33,432 bases of DNA. Source: Candidatus Buchananbacteria bacterium (GTDB lineage Bacteria; Patescibacteriota; Patescibacteriia; 2-01-FULL-39-33). The DNA lies in the NCBI GenBank assembly GCA_903888345.1, contig CAISTG010000035.1, positions 1 to 33,432 of the forward strand, read 5' to 3'. Of the stretch, positions 13,969 to 32,988 are shown in pieces; position 1 is the stretch's first letter, and every line of letters begins with the position of its first letter. The position numbers and the translations under genes were made by a program. Under the pieces are notes generated by a model. It searched no databases. It was not told where the DNA came from and saw only the letters and a program-made list of their open reading frames with translations.

Positions 13969-15543
13969 ATGAACCAAGGAGGACGAAAAAATCAGCGAGC
14001 ATATATTATCGGAAGCGGTATTGCCGGATTGGCGACTGCTGTTTTTTTGATTAAGGATGGCGGGATGAAAGGTGAGAACATTAATATTATTGATAATCGC
14101 CCGCAGGCGGGTGGAAGTTTTGATGGTCAGGGGTCAGCTAAAACGGGATACTTGTGCCGAGGTTATCGCATTTTTGAAAGATCAGTACATGTTAGTGTTT
14201 ACGATCTGCTGTCTAAAATTCCCTCACCTAGAAATCCGAAAAAAAATCTCAGGCAGGAATTTTTTGATTTTAATCGAAAAGTTAAGGTACACGCAAAAGC
14301 ACGACTAATCGAAAAGGGAAAAATAGTTGATGCTTACCATATGGGTTTAAATTGGCGCGATCGCTGGGCTATTTTTAAAATGCTAGTCACGCCCGAGAGA
14401 TTTTTGGGCACCAATCCGATTAGTTATTATTTCACGCCCGCCTTTTTTAAGAGTAATTTCTGGATTGAATGGGCGACGACCTGCTCTTTTGAGCCACGAC
14501 ACAGTGCGATTGAAATGAAAAGATATTTAGAACGACTATTTCATAATGCGCCAGTCTTGGACACATTGGAGTGTGTTTTAAAGACACCGTTTTGCGAACA
14601 TGATTTTTTTGTTTTACCGATTGTAGAATGGTTGAAAGTTCAGGGGGTTAAGTTTCGCCAAAACTCACAGGTTACTGATATTCAATTTAATTCCGCCAGG
14701 GGCAAGAAATCTGTCGAGACAATTGTACTTAAAAGAGGCAAGATTAAGTTGAGTCTGGCAGACTTAGTGTTCTACACTAACGGCACGATTACTACTGATT
14801 CTAGTGTCGGTTCGATGACGCGAGCGCCTAAACCAGTTAAAAACAAATCAGCCACGTGGGACTTATGGAAGAAGTTGGCTCAACGTTTACCAAGCATGGG
14901 AAGGCCGGATGTTTTTAGTGATACAATAAAAAAATCAGAGTGGACTGGGTTTACGATTACATTTAACGATGCCACTTTCTTTGAGTTGCTAGAAAAGCTG
15001 ACTGGCAATAAGCCGGGAACCGGTGGCGCGATCACCTTTAAAAATTCCGGCTGGCTACTGTCGATTGATTTACCACATCAACCATATTTTATCGATCAGC
15101 CCAAAAATACTTTTGTCTGTTGGGGTTATGGTTTGTTGCCACACAGCCAGGGAGATTATATTAAGAAGAAAATGATCGAGTGTACTGGTCGGGAGATCTT
15201 AGAGGAATTAATTTATCAATTAGGCTTGCAGCAACAGAAACGGGCGATTATGAGGCGCGCGATTTGTTTGCCGGTGTTGATGCCGTATATAACGAGTCAG
15301 TTCTTGCCGCGTCAGAAGTCAGATCGTCCCGAAGTGATTCCCAAGGGCACACGAAATTTTGCTTGCCTTGGACAGTATGTGGAAATTCCGCATGAAGTGG
15401 TGTTTATGGTGGAATGTTCGGTGCGTTCGGCCAAGTTGGCAGTCAAAAGTTTACTCGGTTTAACGAATGAAATTCCGCCATTATACCAAAGGAAGTATAA
15501 TCTGGAATGTGTGTATAATGCCCTGAAAATGTTCCTAAGATAG
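13969..15543 (+). CDS. Oleate hydratase family flavoprotein (MCRA family), catalytic Glu missing
   Basis: This 524-residue protein matches the oleate hydratase/MCRA family end to end. It has the FAD-binding GSGIAGLATAVFLIKDG (15-31), GGSFDG (48-53), KSNFWIEWAT (161-170), HSAIEMKRY (178-186), GRxxxEEL-type helices and PYITSQFLPR near the C-terminus. Family members add water to C9-C10 double bonds of unsaturated fatty acids using FAD. In the family the loop RGGREM carries the catalytic Glu (E82 in Staphylococcus aureus OhyA); here it reads RGYRIF (64-69), with Ile at that place. The catalytic Tyr (RRY motif) is kept as Y186, 118 residues later as in OhyA. It is somewhat shorter than the ~590 residues usual for the family. 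Activity as a hydratase is therefore doubtful. It follows the TrmB-like regulator by 22 bp. Confidence 0.85.
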   Translation: MNQGGRKNQRAYIIGSGIAGLATAVFLIKDGGMKGENINIIDNRPQAGGSFDGQGSAKTGYLCRGYRIFERSVHVSVYDLLSKIPSPRNPKKNLRQEFFDFNRKVKVHAKARLIEKGKIVDAYHMGLNWRDRWAIFKMLVTPERFLGTNPISYYFTPAFFKSNFWIEWATTCSFEPRHSAIEMKRYLERLFHNAPVLDTLECVLKTPFCEHDFFVLPIVEWLKVQGVKFRQNSQVTDIQFNSARGKKSVETIVLKRGKIKLSLADLVFYTNGTITTDSSVGSMTRAPKPVKNKSATWDLWKKLAQRLPSMGRPDVFSDTIKKSEWTGFTITFNDATFFELLEKLTGNKPGTGGAITFKNSGWLLSIDLPHQPYFIDQPKNTFVCWGYGLLPHSQGDYIKKKMIECTGREILEELIYQLGLQQQKRAIMRRAICLPVLMPYITSQFLPRQKSDRPEVIPKGTRNFACLGQYVEIPHEVVFMVECSVRSAKLAVKSLLGLTNEIPPLYQRKYNLECVYNALKMFLR

Positions 15544-15940: not shown

Positions 15941-17059
15941 TTAGCGAATTGATTTATAGACTCCTTTAACGCCCTTAGGTGACAAAGCAATTTGCCAGAG
16001 TTGGATGGAACGAGCGCGGAAGGCACCGGCACAGCATAATAGGTAATAGCACCACATGCGATAGAATCTTTCATCATAGCTCTTACTTAGCTCAGGCCAG
16101 GCTTTTAAGAAATTATCATACCAAGCGAGTAAAGTTTTGTCGTAATAGGCACCGAAGTTATGCACGTCTTCAATAACGAATAACCCTTCCGTGGCGGTAG
16201 TTAATTGTTTGAGTGAGGGCAGGGATCCGTTAGGGAAAATATATTTCTCAATCCACGGGTCGGTATTGCTGCCGGATTTGAGACTGCCGATGGTGTGAAG
16301 CAAGAATAATCCATCTTCTTTCAAGCATCTTTTGGCGACCTCCATGTAGGTGCGGTAATTTTTGGAACCGACATGCTCGATCATGCCAATCGAAACAATG
16401 TGGTCGAATTTCTCGTTGACGTCGCGGTAATCTTGTAGGCGGAATTCAACATCTAATCCGGCGCATAATTCTTCTGCCAGTTTTTTTTGTTCTTTAGATA
16501 CAGTCACACCAATAACTTTGGCGCCGTAATTTTTGGCGGCGTGGCGAGCAAAACTGCCCCAGCCACAACCGATATCCAAAACGCGTTGGCCTGGTTGCAA
16601 GTTTAATTTTTTGCAAATCAAATCCAGCTTGGCGTCTTCGGCCTCAGTTAAGTCAGTGGTGTCTTTGAAATAGCCACAGCTGTAGGTCATACTTGGTCCG
16701 AGCATCTCGACGAATAAATCGTTGCCTGTGTCATAATGTTTTTCACCGACTTGGAAAGCTCGGCTGACTGCTTGCATGTTAAAAAGTTTGGCCTTGATAA
16801 ATCCGGCGACTACCGGCAAGGAAAGCCCTAGACGGTCATAGATGTTGGTTGAAAGGATACGATGAAAGAATTCATCGAGCTTTGCGCATTCCCACCAACC
16901 GTCCATGTAGGCTTCACCAAGTCCCAGTGACCCTTCAGCTTTGATGCGGTCATATAATTTGGGATTCTTAATTTGAGGATCCCAGGGGTTGGGGCCATCC
17001 AAAACAATCCCGGTCGGCTCAAGGAGGTAATTTGCCCACTTTTTTGTTGTCTCACTCAT
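15941..17059 (-). CDS. cfa: Cyclopropane-fatty-acyl-phospholipid synthase
   Basis: This 372-residue SAM-dependent enzyme converts cis double bonds of membrane phospholipid acyl chains into cyclopropane rings. Visible: the N-terminal region with GLGEAYMDGWW, the substrate motif KHYDTGNDLF, YSCGYF with the active-site Cys, SAM motif I VLDIGCGWG, GMIEHVG with the active-site Glu, LLHTIG with the His, and NFGAYYDKTL with the Tyr of the bicarbonate site. The length is close to that of the E. coli enzyme (382). All expected catalytic residues are present, in contrast to the nearby oleate-hydratase-like protein. A promoter lies at 17084-17112. Confidence 0.95.
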   Translation of the reverse strand: MSETTKKWANYLLEPTGIVLDGPNPWDPQIKNPKLYDRIKAEGSLGLGEAYMDGWWECAKLDEFFHRILSTNIYDRLGLSLPVVAGFIKAKLFNMQAVSRAFQVGEKHYDTGNDLFVEMLGPSMTYSCGYFKDTTDLTEAEDAKLDLICKKLNLQPGQRVLDIGCGWGSFARHAAKNYGAKVIGVTVSKEQKKLAEELCAGLDVEFRLQDYRDVNEKFDHIVSIGMIEHVGSKNYRTYMEVAKRCLKEDGLFLLHTIGSLKSGSNTDPWIEKYIFPNGSLPSLKQLTTATEGLFVIEDVHNFGAYYDKTLLAWYDNFLKAWPELSKSYDERFYRMWCYYLLCCAGAFRARSIQLWQIALSPKGVKGVYKSIR

Positions 17060-17186: not shown

Positions 17187-17215
17187 TTGACAATGGTTAG
17201 CAATTATGCTAAATT
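17187..17215 (+). promoter_or_regulatory. Upstream promoter with operator-like repeat, 411-aa gene
   Basis: TTGACA (17187-17192), 17 bp, TAAATT (17210-17215). The spacer and -10 contain the inverted repeat TTAGCA-atta-TGCTAA (17197-17212), a likely protein-binding site. Confidence 0.6.
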
Positions 17216-17243
17216 GGTTTGAAACTTAGTACCTTATCAATAC

Positions 17244-17272
17244 TTGACGAAAGTTAAATAAATAATTGTAAT
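17244..17272 (+). promoter_or_regulatory. Downstream promoter, 411-aa gene
   Basis: TTGACG (17244-17249), 17 bp, TGTAAT (17267-17272). It is a second promoter 57 bp downstream of the first, leaving a leader of about 90 nt. Confidence 0.5.
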
Positions 17273-17369
17273 TTGAATAACTGGTTGCTTTTTTGACCCC
17301 GGTTCCTTTAAAACTGTATTTTAGGAGCTGATTAGATATATTTGTAACCAACAAACAGGAGTGATGACT

Positions 17370-18602
17370 ATGGGTAAAAAGACTGGTGTTGTTGACCTTG
17401 TTGCTGAAGTTACGCCGGTTGCGGCGAGCGATGGTTGTGCTGCCGCCTGGCAGGAAAAGGTTGGCGCTTTTGCCACCGCTGTGGGCAAACCACTTGAGGC
17501 AGTGAATGAGGCGTTGGCTGCCGTTTGTGGTGCGCCGAGCGAAGCTGCCTTGGCGGTTCTGGCTGATGAAGAGAGCAGTCCGTTGGCGGATCTCAAAGAA
17601 GCTTTGGCAGAATTGAAGATCCCCAGTGGCGTTTTGCGTCAGAGCGTGACTTTGTTGCGGGGACCCAAGACGGCGCCGGTTGGAGCCACGGTCTTTCAGG
17701 GCTATGGTGCTCTCCCGGTCATGCCCAATGAAGCAAGTTTTATCGAAAGCCTCAAAGTTGGTGGCGTGTTGCGTCCCGGGCAAACGGATGTGATTGCCGC
17801 TTGCCGTTCCGGTTTGGCCGAAAAGGTGGAATATTACTCCTTGCCGAAAAAGATCCTGACGGGAATTTTTGATTATACCAAATCGCGGAAGCAGTTGTTG
17901 GATCGACGCTATTGGGATTTGAAAAAGCAGTTGGCCAAGAACTATTATGCCGATATTTTGGAGGCGCTTGGTCTGCCTGGCGAAGCTGTCAATCCGAAGA
18001 GCAAGCAGGAGTTTTTGAATAAGGTTAATGCCAAGATGTGGCAGGCGCTTTACGATTTCAATTGTCTGGTTGCTGAATGGAATGATCGATTCCTGGCGTC
18101 GGGCAATAATAATATGGCTTTTCTTTCGGCGTTCGTCGCTGTTCAAGCCGGAGGCTCGGTACCGGCATCGATGCAGATTCCTGATACGACTTACTTGCGT
18201 GAGGCTGTTGATGCATTCATCGAAACGGTCAACGAGATTTTCTCTCCGGACGGTTTGCCAATCGCGCGCGCGTTGGCGGTTGATGCGGGTCGTATCAACG
18301 AACTGATCAATGATGAGAGTATCTATACTGCTCTGGGCAAGTCTGATCGTGAGGCGATGCTGCAGGGTTTGGGCGCAACGACTGTCACTTCCGATTATTT
18401 GACGATGGAAAAGTCGCTGCCGCATTTCGCGCTGAGCGTGATGTGCTTTAAGGATGTTCCGATCGGTACGGAGCTTGGTTATCTGTCGGCTTTGTATCAG
18501 TTGGGTGGCAGTATTCCTTGGCACAAGCTGATTCCTGAGGTTAATACTCCGCAGGCCATCGGCCGTGGCGATGGCATTAACCAGCGACGGCTCGTCCGCT
18601 AA
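17370..18602 (+). CDS. Hypothetical protein, 410 aa, start of the vWA/PurA-like cluster
   Basis: I do not recognise this protein. It is soluble and mostly helical, with an Ala-rich N-terminus (about residues 5-70) and no signal peptide or membrane segment. A basic segment (KSRKQLLDRRYWDLKKQ) lies near residue 170. The third in-frame start (ATG 17370) is chosen because CAGGAG (17356-17361) is 8 bp upstream; GTG 17361 and ATG 17364 overlap or crowd the ribosome site. Its base composition is visibly more GC-rich than its surroundings. It has two tandem promoters and its own terminator, and precedes the kinase/pseudokinase/vWA unit in the same direction. A link to that cluster is inferred from position and ribosome-site style. 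Confidence 0.75.
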   Translation: MGKKTGVVDLVAEVTPVAASDGCAAAWQEKVGAFATAVGKPLEAVNEALAAVCGAPSEAALAVLADEESSPLADLKEALAELKIPSGVLRQSVTLLRGPKTAPVGATVFQGYGALPVMPNEASFIESLKVGGVLRPGQTDVIAACRSGLAEKVEYYSLPKKILTGIFDYTKSRKQLLDRRYWDLKKQLAKNYYADILEALGLPGEAVNPKSKQEFLNKVNAKMWQALYDFNCLVAEWNDRFLASGNNNMAFLSAFVAVQAGGSVPASMQIPDTTYLREAVDAFIETVNEIFSPDGLPIARALAVDAGRINELINDESIYTALGKSDREAMLQGLGATTVTSDYLTMEKSLPHFALSVMCFKDVPIGTELGYLSALYQLGGSIPWHKLIPEVNTPQAIGRGDGINQRRLVR

Positions 18603-18624
18603 TTTTCGTTCCTTGTAATTACTG

Positions 18625-18655
18625 CTCCGGTAGCTTAGCTGCCGGAGTTTTTTTA
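18625..18655 (+). terminator. Terminator of the 411-aa gene
   Basis: CTCCGGTAGC (18625-18634) pairs with GCTGCCGGAG (18638-18647) with one mismatch, followed by TTTTTTT. Confidence 0.8.
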
Positions 18656-18701
18656 TGGCTAATTTTCCAGTATTCTTTAATATTTAATACTTGAGTTGGA
18701 C

Positions 18702-18730
18702 TTGACTTTAACTTGTTGGTTTGTTAAGAT
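18702..18730 (+). promoter_or_regulatory. Promoter of the kinase/pseudokinase/vWA unit
   Basis: TTGACT (18702-18707), 17 bp, TAAGAT (18725-18730), giving a leader of about 50 nt. Confidence 0.65.
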
Positions 18731-18788
18731 TGCCAATCGGACCTTACAATTGAAGTTATAACAAATTAACTCAAACAGGAGAATAACA

Positions 18789-19448
18789 ATGCTAGTTGTA
18801 AGTGGACTCAATGACGGAATCTTGGCGATATCTAAGTGGCTCGAAGCGAATTCGCGACCAGTCTTAATCGGGATTGCTGGCATGACTTGCTCCGGCAAAA
18901 CGACGTTAGCAGAAAAATTGCAACAGTCGTTAACGGAACGATCAGTGCTGGTTACACTCGATAATTTCTTTAGGGAATCGATTGATCCGCAACTCCCTCG
19001 AACCAGTGAAGGAAAAAAACTTTTTGACGTTCCGAATTCATATAACGGTAGCGAATTTATCAGTACGGTCGCTCGCTTAGTGGCGGGCTATGAAACTCAA
19101 ATGCCGTATTATGATAAACAGTCCGGTTGTCGCTTGCTGGAAAGATATCAGCGCGTCGCCGCGGCACCAATTATTATTGCCGAAGGACTTTTTGCCCTGA
19201 CCTTTATCAAAGACTTGAAAGTTAAGTCGTTATCGGTATTTGTTAAGGCGGACACTAAAGTTTGTCTGCAGCGGCGAATTGCTCGTGATGTTCCGATTTT
19301 TCGCGTAACACCGGAGCGAGTGCAAAAGAATTTTGAATTGAAAGTTCTGCCGTATTGTGACTATGTCACGACTCAAGAACAAGAGGCGGCAATAGTCATT
19401 TCGACCAATCCAGAAAGGAATTCCGATGACCTACGAAACAGTGCATGA
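18789..19448 (+). CDS. Uridine-kinase-like P-loop kinase
   Basis: This 219-residue protein belongs to the uridine kinase/phosphoribulokinase group, which phosphorylates nucleosides or sugar phosphates with ATP. Walker A is GMTCSGKTT (31-39); LVTLDNFFR (about 55-63) is the DDFY-type base/metal motif; FDVPNSYN corresponds to the family's FDHPDAFD; PYYDK is the substrate loop; EGLFAL follows Walker B; and RRIARDV is the lid. Starts other than ATG 18789 lack the CAGGAG ribosome site. It overlaps the pseudokinase gene by 23 bp. As a housekeeping uridine kinase it is divergent, and its operon partners suggest a specialised substrate. Confidence 0.8.
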   Translation: MLVVSGLNDGILAISKWLEANSRPVLIGIAGMTCSGKTTLAEKLQQSLTERSVLVTLDNFFRESIDPQLPRTSEGKKLFDVPNSYNGSEFISTVARLVAGYETQMPYYDKQSGCRLLERYQRVAAAPIIIAEGLFALTFIKDLKVKSLSVFVKADTKVCLQRRIARDVPIFRVTPERVQKNFELKVLPYCDYVTTQEQEAAIVISTNPERNSDDLRNSA

Positions 19449-20547
19449 ACTTTATGAAGATTTGCAACAAGCCGTCAAACCGGAAGATATTTTCGGTAGC
19501 TTCAATGAAACGTTTGATTTGAGTGTTCAGGGAAGCTTACTCGAAGAAAAGTATCGTGAACTGTTGGCCATCGTCGACGTAACAAAGTATGCCGATCTTT
19601 ATGATCAGGCGGTCGCGGAAGCGGCCAAAATAATCTTGGACAAATATTATGTTCAAGCCAAAGAGTGGATCGCAATCGCCGGTTATGGTGAGGCGCGTCA
19701 CGTGGTTACGTCAGTTCGCTCAGGCCAGGAAAAATTTCAGACTGAGCGAGGTGAATATATTTTGGGCGAAGCATTTGTCCAAGGTGATCATGCCACTCTT
19801 TATGAGGGTGAGTATGTTCGGAACAATGAAGCGGTTCGAGTCGCCATCAAGATTACTGATAGTGCGGCAAATAATAGTTTAATTACCCGCGAGGCGCGTA
19901 CACTGGAAGCTTTTTATGAGGATCCCGCGGATGAGATCAAACATTTTCCGATCTTGCTTGATCAGTTTCAGACTGACGATGGGCGGTCGGGATTGGTTTT
20001 TCGTTACGCTGATAATTGTTTCGATTTGTATACCGTGCGAGAAAATTTCCGTTACAAGAACGGTGTTCATCGGAAACACATGGTCTGGATGTTGAATCGA
20101 GCCTTGTCAGCACTAACTTATGCTCATGCCTATGAGCGGTTACATGGAAATATTGAACCGTCACATTTGATGATTCGGCCGCGTGATCATAATATGTTCC
20201 TGGTTGGTTGGGGTCATAGTATTTTTGCCCCCAAGAAGACTGGTGAAAATTTCAGTGTCTATAATTCTGAATTTAGTGCGCCTGAGGTTAAAGAACGCGG
20301 TGTGGCTTTGCGTTCAGCCGATATTTATTCGCTGGGCATGTGCATGGTCTATATTCTGGGTGGTAATGTTGCCGCCAAGACTATTCCTGATGATGTCGAA
20401 GATGAGTTGGCGAATTTTTTGGGTTCGATGATTCTGGAGAGTCCCTTTCAGCGGGCGCAATCTGCTCTAGTGTTAAAGAAGCAATTGAATGCGATGATTG
20501 TCCGGCTTTGGGGACCGAAGAAATTTTTGGTTTTTGAAATGGATTAA
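19426..20547 (+). CDS. Protein pseudokinase with N-terminal helical domain
   Basis: This 373-residue protein has an N-terminal helical part (1-105) and a protein-kinase-like fold (about 110-345). The ATP-anchoring VAIK is present (K142), as are SAPE (284-287) and DIYSLGM (299-305) of the C-lobe. The catalytic loop reads HGNIEPSHL (240-248) in place of HRDxKPxN, so the catalytic Asp is Asn242 and the metal Asn is His247. DFG is replaced by GWG (261-263). Phosphotransfer by the usual mechanism is therefore unlikely; a scaffold, nucleotide sensor or allosteric partner is more plausible. The start lies inside the previous gene and is supported by AAAGGA (19414-19419), so translation is coupled to the uridine-kinase-like gene. 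Confidence 0.8.
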   Translation: MTYETVHELYEDLQQAVKPEDIFGSFNETFDLSVQGSLLEEKYRELLAIVDVTKYADLYDQAVAEAAKIILDKYYVQAKEWIAIAGYGEARHVVTSVRSGQEKFQTERGEYILGEAFVQGDHATLYEGEYVRNNEAVRVAIKITDSAANNSLITREARTLEAFYEDPADEIKHFPILLDQFQTDDGRSGLVFRYADNCFDLYTVRENFRYKNGVHRKHMVWMLNRALSALTYAHAYERLHGNIEPSHLMIRPRDHNMFLVGWGHSIFAPKKTGENFSVYNSEFSAPEVKERGVALRSADIYSLGMCMVYILGGNVAAKTIPDDVEDELANFLGSMILESPFQRAQSALVLKKQLNAMIVRLWGPKKFLVFEMD

Positions 20548-20608
20548 TTGTTATTAAGGTTAGTTACTGATAAATATTTATAATTCAACCGAAAGAGGAG
20601 ATGCCGCT

Positions 20609-22099
20609 ATGGGCGGAGGCCATTTTGATGAAAGTAATTCTATCAGGATACGCGAATTTTCTCGCGGCAGTTCCCGTAGCTTTGGGTATATACCGGAATC
20701 AAGTATACCGAAGGAACGCAAAGTTCATGCAGCGCTTAATCCGAAAAACTGTATTCGTGAATGTCGCGACAATCCTGATCATCCACTAACGACACCGATC
20801 GTGCCGGGTATGGACGTGACGGAATCGCGTGGCGATGATGTCAGAGTGATGTTCAAGAAATTGCCGCGATTCATTGGTCAAATCTTTTTGCGGGGCTATG
20901 TTCCCGATCCGACCATTAGTTGTTGCGCAATTGGCGATGCTACTTGTGACTTGGCGCCACTGCAGGTTGGTCAGTTTGAAGCTGACAGCCGACTCGACGC
21001 TGTTCTGACGGAGCAGATTTGGGCAGAAAAAGGTGGCGGCGGGACTGGACAGGAAAGTTACGAACTTGCGGCTTACTATTATGCCAATAAAGTAATGCTC
21101 GATTGTCTGGCGCGCGGCAAGAAGGGCTATTTCTTCTTTACGGCTGATGAATCGCCATATCCGAAACTTAGCAAGGCTGAAGTCAAACGCATTATTGGCG
21201 ATACACTGCAGTCGGACGTGCCGACAGCGGAAGTCTTTGCTGATTTGCAGAAAAAGTTCGAAACCTATTTGATCTACATCAAGAAGCCTTGGGCTCAGCG
21301 CAAGAAATCGGTTGATGCCGAAATTGAGCAGCGAGTGAAGAAGGCCGGCGGCATGTATGATGGCGTGGACGTTCGTTTCTCGTTGTTGTGGCATGACCGC
21401 AATGATTTGGATATCCATGTGAGAACGCCCAGTGGCGAGCATATTTATTATTCTAATAAGCAGGCTGATGGCGGCTATCTGGATGTCGATAAGAATGTGA
21501 ACGGCGAAACCACGAAGCCAGTGGAAAATGTCCGCTGGAAAAAGGGTTCAGCGCCTAAGGGCAATTATGAAGTTTGGGTGGAGCGCTATCGTTTTCATGA
21601 GCCGATTGATCTGGATTCTCCTTTCAAAGTGGAAATCTGTATTGGTAATCAGGTTGAAAGTTACGAGGGTGTCATTCCTGCTGGCAGAACTCACGGCGAT
21701 AGTCGGGTGACTGTTGGGGAGTATCATTACGATCCCAATCAGATGGCGCCGGCTGAAACCGAAGCTGATGATCAGTATGCAGCTTATCAGGATCATGTGG
21801 TTATTGGCGAATGGGCCAAATTGTTGCCGGAAGAGAACATTCTCGTGATTAAGGATCCCAAAGCAATCATTGATACGATGTTGGGAGTCCTGGCACTTAA
21901 GGGTGGCACGCGGACCTTGGAGCAATTTTTGATCGAACTTAAAGAGGACGATCAGACTGATGAACGCATCGCCGATGTGTCGGAAGCACTTAAGCTACTG
22001 GCGCAATCTTGCTCGCAGACCAAGGTTGGGGTGACTGCCGTCAAGCGGTCAGGTACGCTCAAGAAACGTGGCAGTGGTAAGTTGATCAATCTCGACTAA
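20609..22099 (+). CDS. vWA domain protein with DUF2135-like beta sandwich
   Basis: This is a 496-residue protein. Residues about 60-225 form a von Willebrand factor A domain of the bacterial type: the MIDAS is DVTES (69-73, D-x-T-x-S), the second Thr is in GGGGTGQES (142-150), and the third ligand is Asp in FFTADE (177-181). Residues about 250-350 resemble a DUF2135/YfaP-like beta sandwich (LLWHDRNDLDIHV, then SGEHIYYSN and PKGNYEVWVERY). The C-terminal ~110 residues are helical and end in a basic tail. There is no signal peptide, so it acts in the cytoplasm, most likely as a metal-dependent adhesion scaffold for partners in this cluster. AGGAG lies 8 bp before the ATG. It is third in its transcription unit and is followed by a terminator. 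Confidence 0.8.
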   Translation: MGGGHFDESNSIRIREFSRGSSRSFGYIPESSIPKERKVHAALNPKNCIRECRDNPDHPLTTPIVPGMDVTESRGDDVRVMFKKLPRFIGQIFLRGYVPDPTISCCAIGDATCDLAPLQVGQFEADSRLDAVLTEQIWAEKGGGGTGQESYELAAYYYANKVMLDCLARGKKGYFFFTADESPYPKLSKAEVKRIIGDTLQSDVPTAEVFADLQKKFETYLIYIKKPWAQRKKSVDAEIEQRVKKAGGMYDGVDVRFSLLWHDRNDLDIHVRTPSGEHIYYSNKQADGGYLDVDKNVNGETTKPVENVRWKKGSAPKGNYEVWVERYRFHEPIDLDSPFKVEICIGNQVESYEGVIPAGRTHGDSRVTVGEYHYDPNQMAPAETEADDQYAAYQDHVVIGEWAKLLPEENILVIKDPKAIIDTMLGVLALKGGTRTLEQFLIELKEDDQTDERIADVSEALKLLAQSCSQTKVGVTAVKRSGTLKKRGSGKLINLD

Positions 22100-22121
22100 A
22101 TTATAAAGAAGTACCTTTTCG

Positions 22122-22152
22122 GACCAAACTCTCGTAGTTTGGTCTTTTTTTC
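22122..22152 (+). terminator. Terminator after the vWA gene
   Basis: GACCAAACT (22122-22130) pairs with AGTTTGGTC (22136-22144), followed by eight T. Confidence 0.85.
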
Positions 22153-22167
22153 TGCTTAAATTTACCC

Positions 22168-22196
22168 TTGACGCGAGGCGATTAATGTGGTAAGGT
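22168..22196 (+). promoter_or_regulatory. Promoter of the PK-like/PurA-like unit
   Basis: TTGACG (22168-22173), 17 bp, TAAGGT (22191-22196). The leader is about 53 nt and ends in an AAAAGGA ribosome site. Confidence 0.6.
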
Positions 22197-22255
22197 TTTG
22201 GATTGAACTTTGACAATTATGATTATTTTAAAATCAAACCAAAAAGGACGAAATA

Positions 22256-23194
22256 ATGATTATTGCAACCTTACCGCCAGTCTATCAGGAAGAATTAAGT
22301 GAGCAAATTGCCAGCCATCCGCGAGTTGATGTGTTGCGTTATAATACTGGTATGGATAGTTATTTTGATCCGGATGAGACCCTGGTATTGCTGAAACAAC
22401 TTACTGAAAGATTTGGTAAGAAACTTTGGCTGGATTTGAAGGGTCGGCAATTGCGCATTAAGGAATGGGTGACGCCTGGCTATAGTGAAATCGTTCTCAA
22501 TCATGCGATTGAGGTGACGGGCCCAGCCCGAGTTCATTTCCGTGGTAGCGGTTGGACCAATCTCAAATATGCTGATGGCAATCGGATCTTCGTTGATCCA
22601 TTGCCGCCCCAAGCTTTGGGCAAGGGACAATCAGTCAATGTAGTTGGTGCCGATGTTAAGATCACTGGCTATCTAACCGACCTTGATCGCGAGTATATCG
22701 AGTTAGCTAAACCTTGTGGTGTCGGCGGATTTTTGTTGTCTTTTGTCGAACGTGTATCCGATATTTCCGAGGTAATGAGTATTTGGGGTGACGATAAAGA
22801 ATCCATGCCCGACCTCATTTTGAAAATTGAGTCAGCGCGAGGCTTAGAGTTTATTCGAAATTTTTCAGTCGAGCCTTTTGCTTCTGCATCTAATCTAGTG
22901 ACTCCAATGTTGGCTCGTGATGATCTCTTCAATGAGCTAGGTAGCGGTCCCTTAGTTTTGTCGGCCGCTACTGAGTTGATTCAGGGATATCCTGAAGCCA
23001 TTACTGCTTCGCGTTTGTGGTCGGGCCTGGAAAGAACCGGCGAGGCGACGGTTGCAGATTTTGCTGATTGGCATTTATTGCATCAGCAAGGCTACAAGAA
23101 TTTCATGCTGTCTGATGGTCTCTGTTTGCGGCAGTTTACTGCCGCCATGGAAGCCATTGAAGAATATTATCAAGCTTATCCTGAGAAGGAGTAA
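22256..23194 (+). CDS. Pyruvate-kinase-like TIM-barrel protein, 312 aa
   Basis: The sequence follows the barrel part of pyruvate kinase: IIATLPP at the start, LDLKGRQLRI (59-68, like the DxKGPEIR strand), GFLLSFVE (158-165), LKIESARGLEFI (189-200, with the Lys and Glu of the PEP/metal site) and MLARDDLFNEL (218-228, like MVARGDLGVE). ATVADFADWHLLHQQGY then matches the PTRAE helix. At 312 residues it lacks the regulatory C-terminal domain, and the B domain is reduced to a short insert, so it is not an ordinary glycolytic enzyme. It may be a kinase or lyase acting on a small carboxylic acid. The PurA-like gene begins 4 bp after its stop. Confidence 0.75.
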   Translation: MIIATLPPVYQEELSEQIASHPRVDVLRYNTGMDSYFDPDETLVLLKQLTERFGKKLWLDLKGRQLRIKEWVTPGYSEIVLNHAIEVTGPARVHFRGSGWTNLKYADGNRIFVDPLPPQALGKGQSVNVVGADVKITGYLTDLDREYIELAKPCGVGGFLLSFVERVSDISEVMSIWGDDKESMPDLILKIESARGLEFIRNFSVEPFASASNLVTPMLARDDLFNELGSGPLVLSAATELIQGYPEAITASRLWSGLERTGEATVADFADWHLLHQQGYKNFMLSDGLCLRQFTAAMEAIEEYYQAYPEKE

Positions 23195-23198
23195 CCTT

Positions 23199-24575
23199 GT
23201 GTCTAAAACAAGTTATATTGTTGGCGGTCTTGGTTTCGGTGACGAAGGCAAGGGCCGTCTGGTTGATTATTTGGTCCGTCGCTTCGGTCTTGATAAAGTT
23301 GTTCGCTATAATGGCGGACCGCAGGCTGCGCATCATGTTGTTACACCGGAAGGTTTGCAACATTGTTGTGCTCAAGTGGGAGCCGGTAGCTTAGTGCCGG
23401 GAGTGAAGACCTATTTGTCGCGACATATGCTTGTTAATCCCTTGCAGTTAGAAACCGAAATTGAGGTTTTGAGCGCGAAGGGGATTAATGATATGTGGGA
23501 GCGCATTTTCATTGATGAAAATTGTTTCATTGTCACTCCATTCCATCGGTTAATGAATCAAATCAGAGAGCTATTGCGTGGCGCTAATCGCCATGGCAGT
23601 TGTGGTAAAGGAGTTGGTGAAGCCGCTATTGATGTTGCCACTTACGGTAATAGTTTGATGTTGCAAATGAAGGATTTGACTGATCCCGATTGGTTGTGGC
23701 AAAAATTAACCGCCATTAAGCAGCAAAAAATTGCCTTGGCAAAAGAATTAACTAAGGTAATAGGGCCGACGCTGGAGGTGCGATTGCGCATCCAAGAATT
23801 ATATAATTATGATTTGGATTTGTTGATTGAAAATTATATTTATCTTGGACGGTTTTTTCATATTTTGTCGTACCAGCAGTTTCAGAAAGAAATTGCCCTT
23901 GGCAATGCCGTCTTCGAAGGCGCTCAAGGTATGCTATTGCATCGTGACTTAGGTTTTGTGCCACATGTCACACAATCCGATACTAGTTTCACTAATGCCG
24001 AAAACTTATTGGCTGAAGCAGAATTCTCCGGCGAGGTGAAACGGTTGGCGGTTATTCGCGGTTACTATACTCGCCATGGCGCTGGTCCGTTCGTTACTGA
24101 AGATGCGGCAATGTCGCAATATGTTGCCGGCTGTCATAATGAATCTAATAAGTGGCAGGGTGAGTTTCGTTTGGGATGGTTTGATTTGCTGATGGCTCGT
24201 TACGCGCTCGAACATCTGGGTGCGGTCGACGGGATAGCAATTACTAATCTTGATCGAATGACTGATTGTCCAGCGATTAAAGTTGCTATGGCTTATCAGC
24301 ATTATGAGGATCCAGCAGTAAGTCCGCTAGTGCGCGGTTGGGGTTTGGTGCAAGGTTTGCGTCCCTCCAAGAGTGCACCGGTACAAAGTGTGCCACACGC
24401 CCTAAGTCGTTGCCGACCAGTGTATAAATCAGATCCCAGTTGGCGGATTACTGACGAATCTGGATTTAAGCCAAATTCACCATACCTGAAGTTTCTCGCC
24501 GAGCAGCTAAAAGTTCCGGTAGTTGCTACCGCTTTTGGTCCAACGGCCACAGACACCATTTGTCTGTGGAATTAA
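23199..24575 (+). CDS. Divergent adenylosuccinate synthetase-like enzyme (PurA/PurZ superfamily)
   Basis: This 458-residue GTP/ATP-dependent ligase-like protein has GFGDEGKGR (12-20, with the catalytic Asp15), GGPQAAH (39-45, with the His in place of GGHNAGH), GSCGKGVGEA for the IMP-phosphate loop GTTGRGIG, EGAQGMLL, TRHGAGPF and AITNLDRM. PurA joins IMP and aspartate. The aspartate-binding loop, normally TTGRxRRxGW, reads KWQGEFRLGW and keeps only one Arg, so the amino acid or nucleotide substrate may differ. Phage PurZ, which makes the precursor of 2-aminoadenine, is another branch of this superfamily. GTG at 23199 has AAGGAG at 7-bp spacing; the frame is open further upstream, but only inside the PK-like gene. 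It is somewhat longer than E. coli PurA (432). Confidence 0.85.
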   Translation: MSKTSYIVGGLGFGDEGKGRLVDYLVRRFGLDKVVRYNGGPQAAHHVVTPEGLQHCCAQVGAGSLVPGVKTYLSRHMLVNPLQLETEIEVLSAKGINDMWERIFIDENCFIVTPFHRLMNQIRELLRGANRHGSCGKGVGEAAIDVATYGNSLMLQMKDLTDPDWLWQKLTAIKQQKIALAKELTKVIGPTLEVRLRIQELYNYDLDLLIENYIYLGRFFHILSYQQFQKEIALGNAVFEGAQGMLLHRDLGFVPHVTQSDTSFTNAENLLAEAEFSGEVKRLAVIRGYYTRHGAGPFVTEDAAMSQYVAGCHNESNKWQGEFRLGWFDLLMARYALEHLGAVDGIAITNLDRMTDCPAIKVAMAYQHYEDPAVSPLVRGWGLVQGLRPSKSAPVQSVPHALSRCRPVYKSDPSWRITDESGFKPNSPYLKFLAEQLKVPVVATAFGPTATDTICLWN

Positions 24576-24599
24576 TCGGTTTCAACCAAAGGATAGGTC

Positions 24600-24896
24600 A
24601 TGATCAAAGAAAAAATCGCTCAATTTATTAGACGGTTTAATCTGCCGGTCTATATTGTTCGGGATTACCATCGTTATCTGAGTTATGAGGTTTTCTGTAA
24701 CGCTAATGGAACTAACCAGATTTTTCAGCATTGCCAAACGGGTGGTCCTTACATCTTCGGCTTTTATCTTTCGGTGAAAAGAGCTAAGAAAGCTCTAGAA
24801 AAAGCCAATGAGTGCTGGTATGCCGAAAACGAATATGATTTGTCTTCAATTACCGTCAAGGGAATGGACATTACTGTATGTTCTGAGTCTGAGTAA
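24600..24896 (+). CDS. Hypothetical protein, 98 aa, last gene of the PurA-like unit
   Basis: I do not recognise this protein. It is a small soluble alpha/beta protein: an N-terminal basic helix (IKEKIAQFIRRF), beta-rich middle (PVYIVRDYHRYLSYEVF) and a Lys-rich helix (VKRAKKALEKANECW), with four Cys that form no evident metal site. AAAGGA precedes the ATG, and the gene begins 24 bp after the PurA-like stop with a terminator directly after it, so it belongs to that transcript. Confidence 0.65.
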   Translation: MIKEKIAQFIRRFNLPVYIVRDYHRYLSYEVFCNANGTNQIFQHCQTGGPYIFGFYLSVKRAKKALEKANECWYAENEYDLSSITVKGMDITVCSESE

Positions 24897-24908
24897 TTTG
24901 AACCTTTA

Positions 24909-24938
24909 GCCACCTTCGTAATAATGGTGGCTTTTTTA
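24909..24938 (+). terminator. Terminator of the PurA-like unit
   Basis: AGCCACC (24909-24915) pairs with GGTGGCT (24927-24933), followed by a T run. Confidence 0.8.
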
Positions 24939-32517: not shown

Positions 32518-32988
32518 TTAAAGAATCGGTGTTCGGACGAAGTCGCGGAGGGCGGTGAGTCGTGAGCAGAATTCTGCTTCTGTAAGGACAGTTAGCGTTG
32601 GATTAGAATTGCCGATAGTGTGGATCAGCGGTGCTTCTCCAGTGGCGAGTAGTGCGCGTCGGAAGCTATCATTTTGCGCCAGCGCGAGAAAGGCGCGGTT
32701 CAGTAGTTTCTGATATTCCGGACCAGTGCGTTCAAACTCCTGTCCTTGCCACCACAACTTCTGCACGCTCTGCCAATTGGCATTCAGTTTACGGCCGCGT
32801 CGTTTGGCGTCGCGTCCGACCAGTTGGCAGATTTCAATTTGCTCGGAAATATCCGGTGTCTTGAAAGCTTGTACTAGCCCTTCCATTGAGCGGCAGAGTA
32901 CGCCGTCGAAAATAAATTCGCGAGCCTCGAAGTTACTGAGGTCCCCGGCGGGAAATCCAGACTCCGATCCGATATCTAGTGGCTGCAT
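32518..32988 (-). CDS. NADAR-like (YbiA/DUF1768-type) protein
   Basis: This 156-residue protein resembles the NADAR fold: SESGFPAGDLSNF followed by FEAREFIFDG, CRSMEGLVQAFK, LVGRDAKRRG and RRALLATGEAPLIHTIG correspond to the family's GxxLSNF, ExxxQAxK, GR and LLxTG positions. NADAR members (YbiA in riboflavin metabolism, others on ADP-ribosylated guanine) are N-glycosidases cleaving ribose-linked groups. The usual final W-G is not obvious. GAGGAG 9 bp upstream supports the ATG. It lies 20 bp after the zinc-ribbon gene in one transcript. The family call is by pattern memory only. Confidence 0.6.
   Translation of the reverse strand: MQPLDIGSESGFPAGDLSNFEAREFIFDGVLCRSMEGLVQAFKTPDISEQIEICQLVGRDAKRRGRKLNANWQSVQKLWWQGQEFERTGPEYQKLLNRAFLALAQNDSFRRALLATGEAPLIHTIGNSNPTLTVLTEAEFCSRLTALRDFVRTPIL

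Follow-up and report, generated by a model that had tools for sequence, protein, structure and literature searches.

A kinase, vWA and PurA-like gene cassette conserved in bacteria and large phages: a probable new stress or conflict system involving NAD or nucleotides

What a run of seven same-direction genes, joining kinase and vWA signalling folds to enzymes of nucleotide metabolism, might do in a small Patescibacteria genome is the question raised by contig CAISTG010000035.1 of a Candidatus Buchananbacteria bacterium (assembly GCA_903888345.1), positions 1-33,432 of which are referred to here as the window. An earlier interpretation made from the letters only (the sequence-only reading) placed an undescribed, non-housekeeping multi-gene system at 17187-24938, and no such system was present in any family library or paper searched. 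All seven genes were found where they had been placed, and four of them, named here KIN, VWA, PURL and PKL, carry the main argument:

19426-20547, + strand: KIN, a pseudokinase (PF00069, 2e-9; HRD changed to HGN and DFG to GWG)
20609-22099, + strand: VWA, a vWA protein with a metal ion-dependent adhesion site (MIDAS), an inserted beta sandwich and the N-terminus MGGG (PHROG, structure, alignment)
23199-24575, + strand: PURL, a PurA-like enzyme with a GTG start and apparently remodelled substrate sites (PF00709, 1e-65; residue signature; tree)
22256-23194, + strand: PKL, a pyruvate-kinase-like barrel and second enzyme partner (PF00224, 5e-9; alignment)

The core cassette consists of KIN, VWA and PURL and is a conserved, real multi-gene unit. 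The gene order is fixed across many bacteria and large phages, with genes for making or sensing NAD often alongside, and on these grounds the cassette probably represents a new system for NAD/nucleotide stress or conflict. The loci examined were the best 80 of the 133 IMG/VR contigs found with a vWA query, the best 80 found there with a PURL query and the best 80 of at least 559 vWA loci from a scan of bacterial genomes. With the vWA query PURL was encoded on the same strand in 76/80 viral contigs, mostly directly after vWA, and a kinase-like gene was present in 46/80, mostly directly before it, with PURL retained in 56 of the 57 viral-containing clusters formed at 70% identity. The PURL query returned a vWA gene in 78/80, the other two contigs being cut by their ends. 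In a phage collection the vWA and PurA-like proteins occurred in three shared host groups and in almost equal numbers there (vWA/PurA-like: Mycobacterium 188/189, Rhizobium 10/10, Vibrio 6/6), with vWA-PurA-like pairs in Vibrio phage TDDLMA and Rhizobium phage Y65 and an adjacent kinase-vWA-PurA-like set (gp106-104) in Mycobacterium phage Tonenili, which was reached via PHROG matches. The Bixzunavirus genes of PHROG 3043, 2971 and 1211, exemplified by those of Tonenili, match the KIN-VWA-PURL triad in content and order, but have been annotated singly with no system or function described, and they lack UdkL, PKL and O413 (UdkL and O413 being further genes of the window cluster, see below).

Among the best 80 bacterial loci KIN was present in 77 and PURL in 73, the phyla represented being Actinomycetota, Myxococcota, Acidobacteriota, Planctomycetota, Spirochaetota and Pseudomonadota together with a Kaiserbacterium; two genomes without PURL beside vWA (Myxococcota, Deltaproteobacteria) encode a PURL-like protein elsewhere. 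Within the Patescibacteria vWA was found in 12 of 380 genomes, two of them with weak matches, and the other ten, the window included, all have PURL beside vWA. The conserved neighbourhood presumed by the sequence-only reading was thus found, the genes travelling together in phages and bacteria instead of occurring separately. The carriage by phages, the recurrent NAD/ADP-ribose genes, a second module on contig C50 of the same genome and the existence of two interchangeable enzyme partners go beyond that reading.

KIN-VWA-PKL is a second module type (type II, the PURL-bearing cassette being type I), with PKL as the second exchangeable partner. A search of IMG/VR with PKL only gave KIN-VWA upstream in 17/17 viral loci. 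The C50 module (C50:2997-6719, L007) comprises a metallophosphoesterase, an active-looking kinase, a vWA protein beginning MGYG and a PK-like protein, followed by a radical SAM protein, and Patescibacteria type II modules were found in genomes that also carry type I (G173, G377, G427 and the window genome, G000). Both partners are joined as KIN-VWA-PKL-PURL in the window, in L091, G112 and G327, and in viral locus L252, with the exact window order UdkL-KIN-VWA-PKL-PURL also present in G112, another Patescibacterium. The catalytic R-x-N, KIE and RxDL residues of PKL are present, R28, N30, K190, E192 and D223 being invariant in seven aligned sequences. In keeping with the claim that PKL is not a housekeeping copy, it scores 44 bits against NCBIfam PK cut-offs of 306-432 and the full Pyk of the genome is encoded on contig C31. 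The folds assigned to PKL, PURL and UdkL (uridine-kinase family, PF00485, 2e-17) were likewise borne out by Pfam matches.

In type I KIN the catalytic Asp of HRD is gone, the motif being HGN in the window and mostly HGA where it could be read, with DWC or GWG at the position of DFG, so that the pseudokinase fold originally proposed was upheld. Many KIN relatives have a DnaJ-like N-terminal domain, the HPD motif of which is lost in the window copy. The catalytic Asp is kept in type II kinases and in the C50 kinase, those of the viral PKL loci mostly keeping HxD with DFG or DYG and having J-domain-like N-termini. VWA has no Pfam match and matches PHROG 2971 (8e-48) and, at its C-terminus, PHROG 1735 (1e-30). 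Its AlphaFold model (pLDDT 84) was placed by Foldseek with vWA/integrin-beta-like folds carrying an inserted beta sandwich, and the MIDAS D69-x-T71-x-S73 is invariant across 29 aligned sequences, both as had been read from the sequence. An N-terminal motif M-G-[SGY]-[GS]-x-[WYF] begins most of 178 VWA proteins, with M-G in 167/178 when start codons were chosen without using the Gly. At the other end of the protein, a conserved -R-L tail was seen in many bacterial vWA proteins when C-termini were aligned. ArnB was among the Foldseek matches, and the archaeal ArnAB system resembles the cassette in placing a vWA protein (vWA/Sec23-24 core) under kinase control, but it serves archaeal motility regulation and has no nucleotide enzyme. 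In some kinase-less phage loci (L081, L085, L089, L072, L078 and similar) a very Met-rich protein is encoded directly upstream of vWA in place of the kinase. As this was the case in only 8-11 of 34 kinase-less phage loci, the Met-rich protein was rejected as a general substitute for KIN.

PURL has the fold of PurA (PF00709) but forms a separate clade (SH-aLRT 99), distinct from both housekeeping PurA and PurZ, the PurZ row lying on a very long branch, and NCBIfam PurA models score it far below cut-off. Across 152 aligned PURL sequences D13, K16 and H41 are kept in essentially all, and Q224 and T239 are mostly kept. The aspartate loop differs from that of PurA, R303 being deleted in all 152, T301 replaced by Q in ~98% and R305 mostly by F or L, with further family-wide changes of N38 to Q and V273 to H, a change of K331 to H, C or N, and changes at most 5'-phosphate-site residues. 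In structures of E. coli PurA the positions changed in PURL bind the 5'-phosphate of IMP, the ribose and the aspartate. Because D13, K16 and H41 are kept and the residues binding IMP, ribose and aspartate are changed, PURL seems from its alignment to have kept the activation chemistry and remodelled both substrate sites. A separate housekeeping PurA, ~30% identical to window PURL, is present in most bacterial hosts tested, and unlike PurA, PURL is accompanied by vWA in all informative viral contigs. PurB was not found in the host genome of the window (98.5% complete), and classical AMP synthesis is therefore excluded as far as that completeness allows. The sequence-only reading was right, then, that PURL is no plain housekeeping copy. 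The 'adenylosuccinate synthetase' annotations of Cluster C phages (L006 4316-5644, nearly 200 mycobacteriophage records) belong to the PURL clade, and the function given in them is probably wrong.

The association with NAD is seen in the neighbourhood of the cassette. Of 69 actinobacterial loci, 58 encode an NrtR-type NUDIX regulator one gene upstream of KIN, and all eight actinobacterial families are represented, Pseudonocardiaceae by only 1/8 loci; independent cases are an NrtR in G377 and an NrtR-like match in L103. In G327 the order is NrtR, an NMNAT-like protein and KIN-VWA-PKL-PURL, followed by an isochorismatase/nicotinamidase-like protein, an NMNAT-like/NAD kinase protein and an ADP-ribosylglycohydrolase. 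NadV and NadM/NUDIX genes lie near the cassette in L103 and L068, a NUDIX gene adjoins it in L091 and L242, and in the viral flanks NAPRTase/NAMPT was tied with Band_7 as the commonest Pfam family. Phage NAD+ reconstitution (NadV-NadM, NARP) is akin to the cassette in that NAD-salvage genes lie near some copies and enzymes have been repurposed from nucleotide metabolism, but differs in that no enzyme of NAD synthesis is encoded by the cassette itself.

The best model, which is held tentatively, is that a nucleotide enzyme derived from PurA and/or PK, and linked to NAD/ADP-ribose, is under the control of a kinase/vWA chassis. KIN and a MIDAS-bearing VWA adaptor would bind and control the partner, namely PURL in type I, PKL in type II or both in the window, with PURL docked by the MIDAS and the conserved N-terminal tail of VWA and the complex gated by KIN. 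PURL may activate a purine-type nucleotide in the manner of PurA, phosphorylating its 6-oxo group, as the kept D13, K16 and H41 suggest, and may then couple the activated nucleotide to an amine other than aspartate, the nucleotide being, we infer, NAD/ADP-ribose-related. The cassette would on this model serve NAD/nucleotide homeostasis under stress or phage-host conflict, both in bacteria and in large phages. A more specific version, in which PURL attaches a purine nucleotide through the purine C6 to the N-terminal alpha-amine of VWA (Gly2, after removal of Met) as an undescribed protein modification, is a long shot. The M-G start of most VWA proteins favours it, as does the loss from PURL of both carboxylate-binding arginines, expected if the acceptor were a peptide amine, but in three cassettes VWA starts MAKD, MRDK or MVHK with PURL signatures essentially unchanged, and the tail may therefore be a docking motif only.

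Several points weigh against the model of a chassis-controlled, NAD-related enzyme. Samples limited to the best 80 are biased towards close relatives of the query; ~40% of the sampled phage loci have no recognisable KIN; and the residue roles in PURL are transferred from E. coli PurA via alignment. NAD genes are adjacent neither in the window nor at C50, so the NAD link of the window copy is by family only, and only ~9-10% of the viral loci sampled have them within ~6 kb. Some pathways other than those of NAD are also under the control of NrtR-type regulators. No vWA/kinase/adenylosuccinate synthetase system was found described in the open-licence PMC literature, including searches on NrtR regulons and on J-domain/pseudokinase proteins, and a survey of jumbo phages mentions neither adenylosuccinate nor PurA (PMC7824862). 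What is defined here is a widespread phage and bacterial cassette with a new clade of PurA-derived enzymes, currently annotated as adenylosuccinate synthetase, at its centre. Its fixed gene order, two exchangeable partners and NrtR linkage give rise to specific, testable predictions, both on a new reaction of purine nucleotides linked to NAD metabolism and on the control of metabolic enzymes by vWA/kinase chassis.

An alternative that we consider unlikely is a phage-host conflict module that makes or destroys a nucleotide-type signal, serving for defence in its bacterial copies or, in phage copies, for countering immunity based on NAD depletion or a nucleotide signal. The presence of the cassette in phages and bacteria, its patchy occurrence in the Patescibacteria and the weak match of PADLOC kinase families to KIN are in keeping with this, as are NadV and NadM near some phage copies, enzymes which phages use against NAD depletion. 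However, there was no defence-island enrichment, PADLOC giving scattered single matches on 78 neighbours from Patescibacteria and other phyla, the NrtR-linked chromosomal copies are stable across actinobacterial genera and no effector domain was seen. The anti-phage role suggested by the sequence-only reading fared poorly on similar grounds, with vWA, PURL and PKL matching no PADLOC family, no recurrent defence neighbours and wide carriage of the cassette by large phages.

The remaining alternatives are disfavoured by the tests. A Ter-type module, proposed as the nearest analogy, would couple kinase/vWA signalling to enzymes making a nucleoside-like metabolite and is distinctly improbable. The Ter stress modules share with the cassette vWA and kinase proteins alongside predicted nucleotide-metabolite enzymes, and in Rhizobium phage Y65 genes for PRTase_3 (PF15610), HAD and a metallophosphoesterase precede vWA-PURL by 4-7 kb. 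The cassette, however, has different enzymes, and a conserved Ter phosphoribosyltransferase set seems to be missing from it. Ter membership was set aside because no TerD-family protein was found in the host genome and neither the PRTase_3 nor the HAD protein of Y65 has a relative at any other of the loci sampled, leaving this Ter-type phosphoribosyltransferase near one phage copy only. The Y65 locus (L009 1237-5245) also has a NUDIX gene with the metallophosphoesterase, HAD and PRTase_3 genes shortly 5' of vWA-PURL. That PURL is a PurZ-like enzyme making a modified deoxynucleotide for phage DNA is very unlikely, even though the PurZ of 2-aminoadenine phages is also a phage-encoded PurA paralog (PMC12884076) and PURL falls in PHROG 1211, which is named for the 2-amino enzyme. 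PURL scores 48 bits with NF038379 against a cut-off of 300 and lies on a separate branch; phiVC8 PurZ has Ser at D13 and keeps Arg at R305 of the Asp loop, the reverse of PURL; and PURL is common in bacterial chromosomes, with PurB absent from the window's host. On the score, branch and reversed residues PurZ-type DNA modification was set aside. To our knowledge PurZ has no vWA or kinase partners. An auxiliary purine-salvage cassette, with PURL still making adenylosuccinate, is highly improbable: the PurA fold and catalytic D13, K16 and H41 are intact, but the aspartate-site residues T301, R303 and R305 are lost, most 5'-phosphate-site residues are changed, and the separate housekeeping PurA of most hosts tested and the lack of PurB in the window's host speak against it.

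The remaining features of the cluster are as follows:

17361-18602, + strand: O413, an accessory protein of helical type whose N-terminus is SAM/HhH-like; translation probably starts at ATG 17370; no family matches
18789-19448, + strand: UdkL, a uridine-kinase-family P-loop kinase, at the same position in G112 (= L242)
24600-24896, + strand: 98-residue orphan, last gene of unit 3; no relatives found
17187-17215, + strand: promoter-like site of unit 1 (TTGACA-17-TAAATT, consensus match only)
18624-18648, + strand: intrinsic terminator at the end of unit 1 (11-bp stem, T run)
18702-18730, + strand: promoter-like site of unit 2 (promoter-like match)
22121-22145, + strand: intrinsic terminator at the end of unit 2 (strong terminator-like hairpin)
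24908-24938, + strand: terminator-like hairpin with T run 3' of unit 3 (direct sequence reading)

Because strong terminator-like hairpins follow 18602 and 22099, three transcription units are plausible, comprising O413 alone, UdkL-KIN-VWA and PKL-PURL-orphan. Of the three promoter-led units originally described, the terminators of units 1 and 2 and their promoter-like sites stood, but no convincing promoter was found for unit 3, and promoter-like matches overall are weakly above chance (22 against 13.5 +/- 4.1). The close packing of the genes was as described, UdkL and KIN sharing 23 nt and PKL and PURL being 4 nt apart, and Shine-Dalgarno-like CAGGAG, AAAGGA, GAGGAG and AAGGAG sites are visible 5' of the genes. 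O413 is a recurrent accessory of the cassette, with relatives always adjoining it in six other genomes (L103 and five Patescibacteria genomes) and no viral relatives found on searching; only the 98-residue protein stays an orphan of the two that had been so named. The O413 model is mostly helical and, with a pLDDT of 53, too low in confidence to be fit for a fold search. Neither UdkL nor the 98-residue orphan had a relative among the sampled viral loci or the first 80 bacterial loci; a UdkL relative does lie directly upstream of the cassette in G112.

The G+C content of the module genes is 0.45-0.53 (0.39 in the last orphan) against 0.37-0.44 in most neighbours and vWA was not found in 56 related genomes, so the cluster was probably acquired horizontally. 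Elsewhere in the window, 7.6 kb from the cluster, positions 32518-32988 encode a T4 Gp30.3 family protein (PF08010, 2e-48; G+C 0.53), a family we take to be NADAR-like, and the gene is phage-type and possibly ADP-ribose-related. On the other side an MCRA-family (oleate hydratase-like) flavoenzyme (13969-15540) adjoins a cyclopropane-fatty-acid synthase (15941-17059), an unusual lipid-modifying pair in a small Patescibacteria genome.

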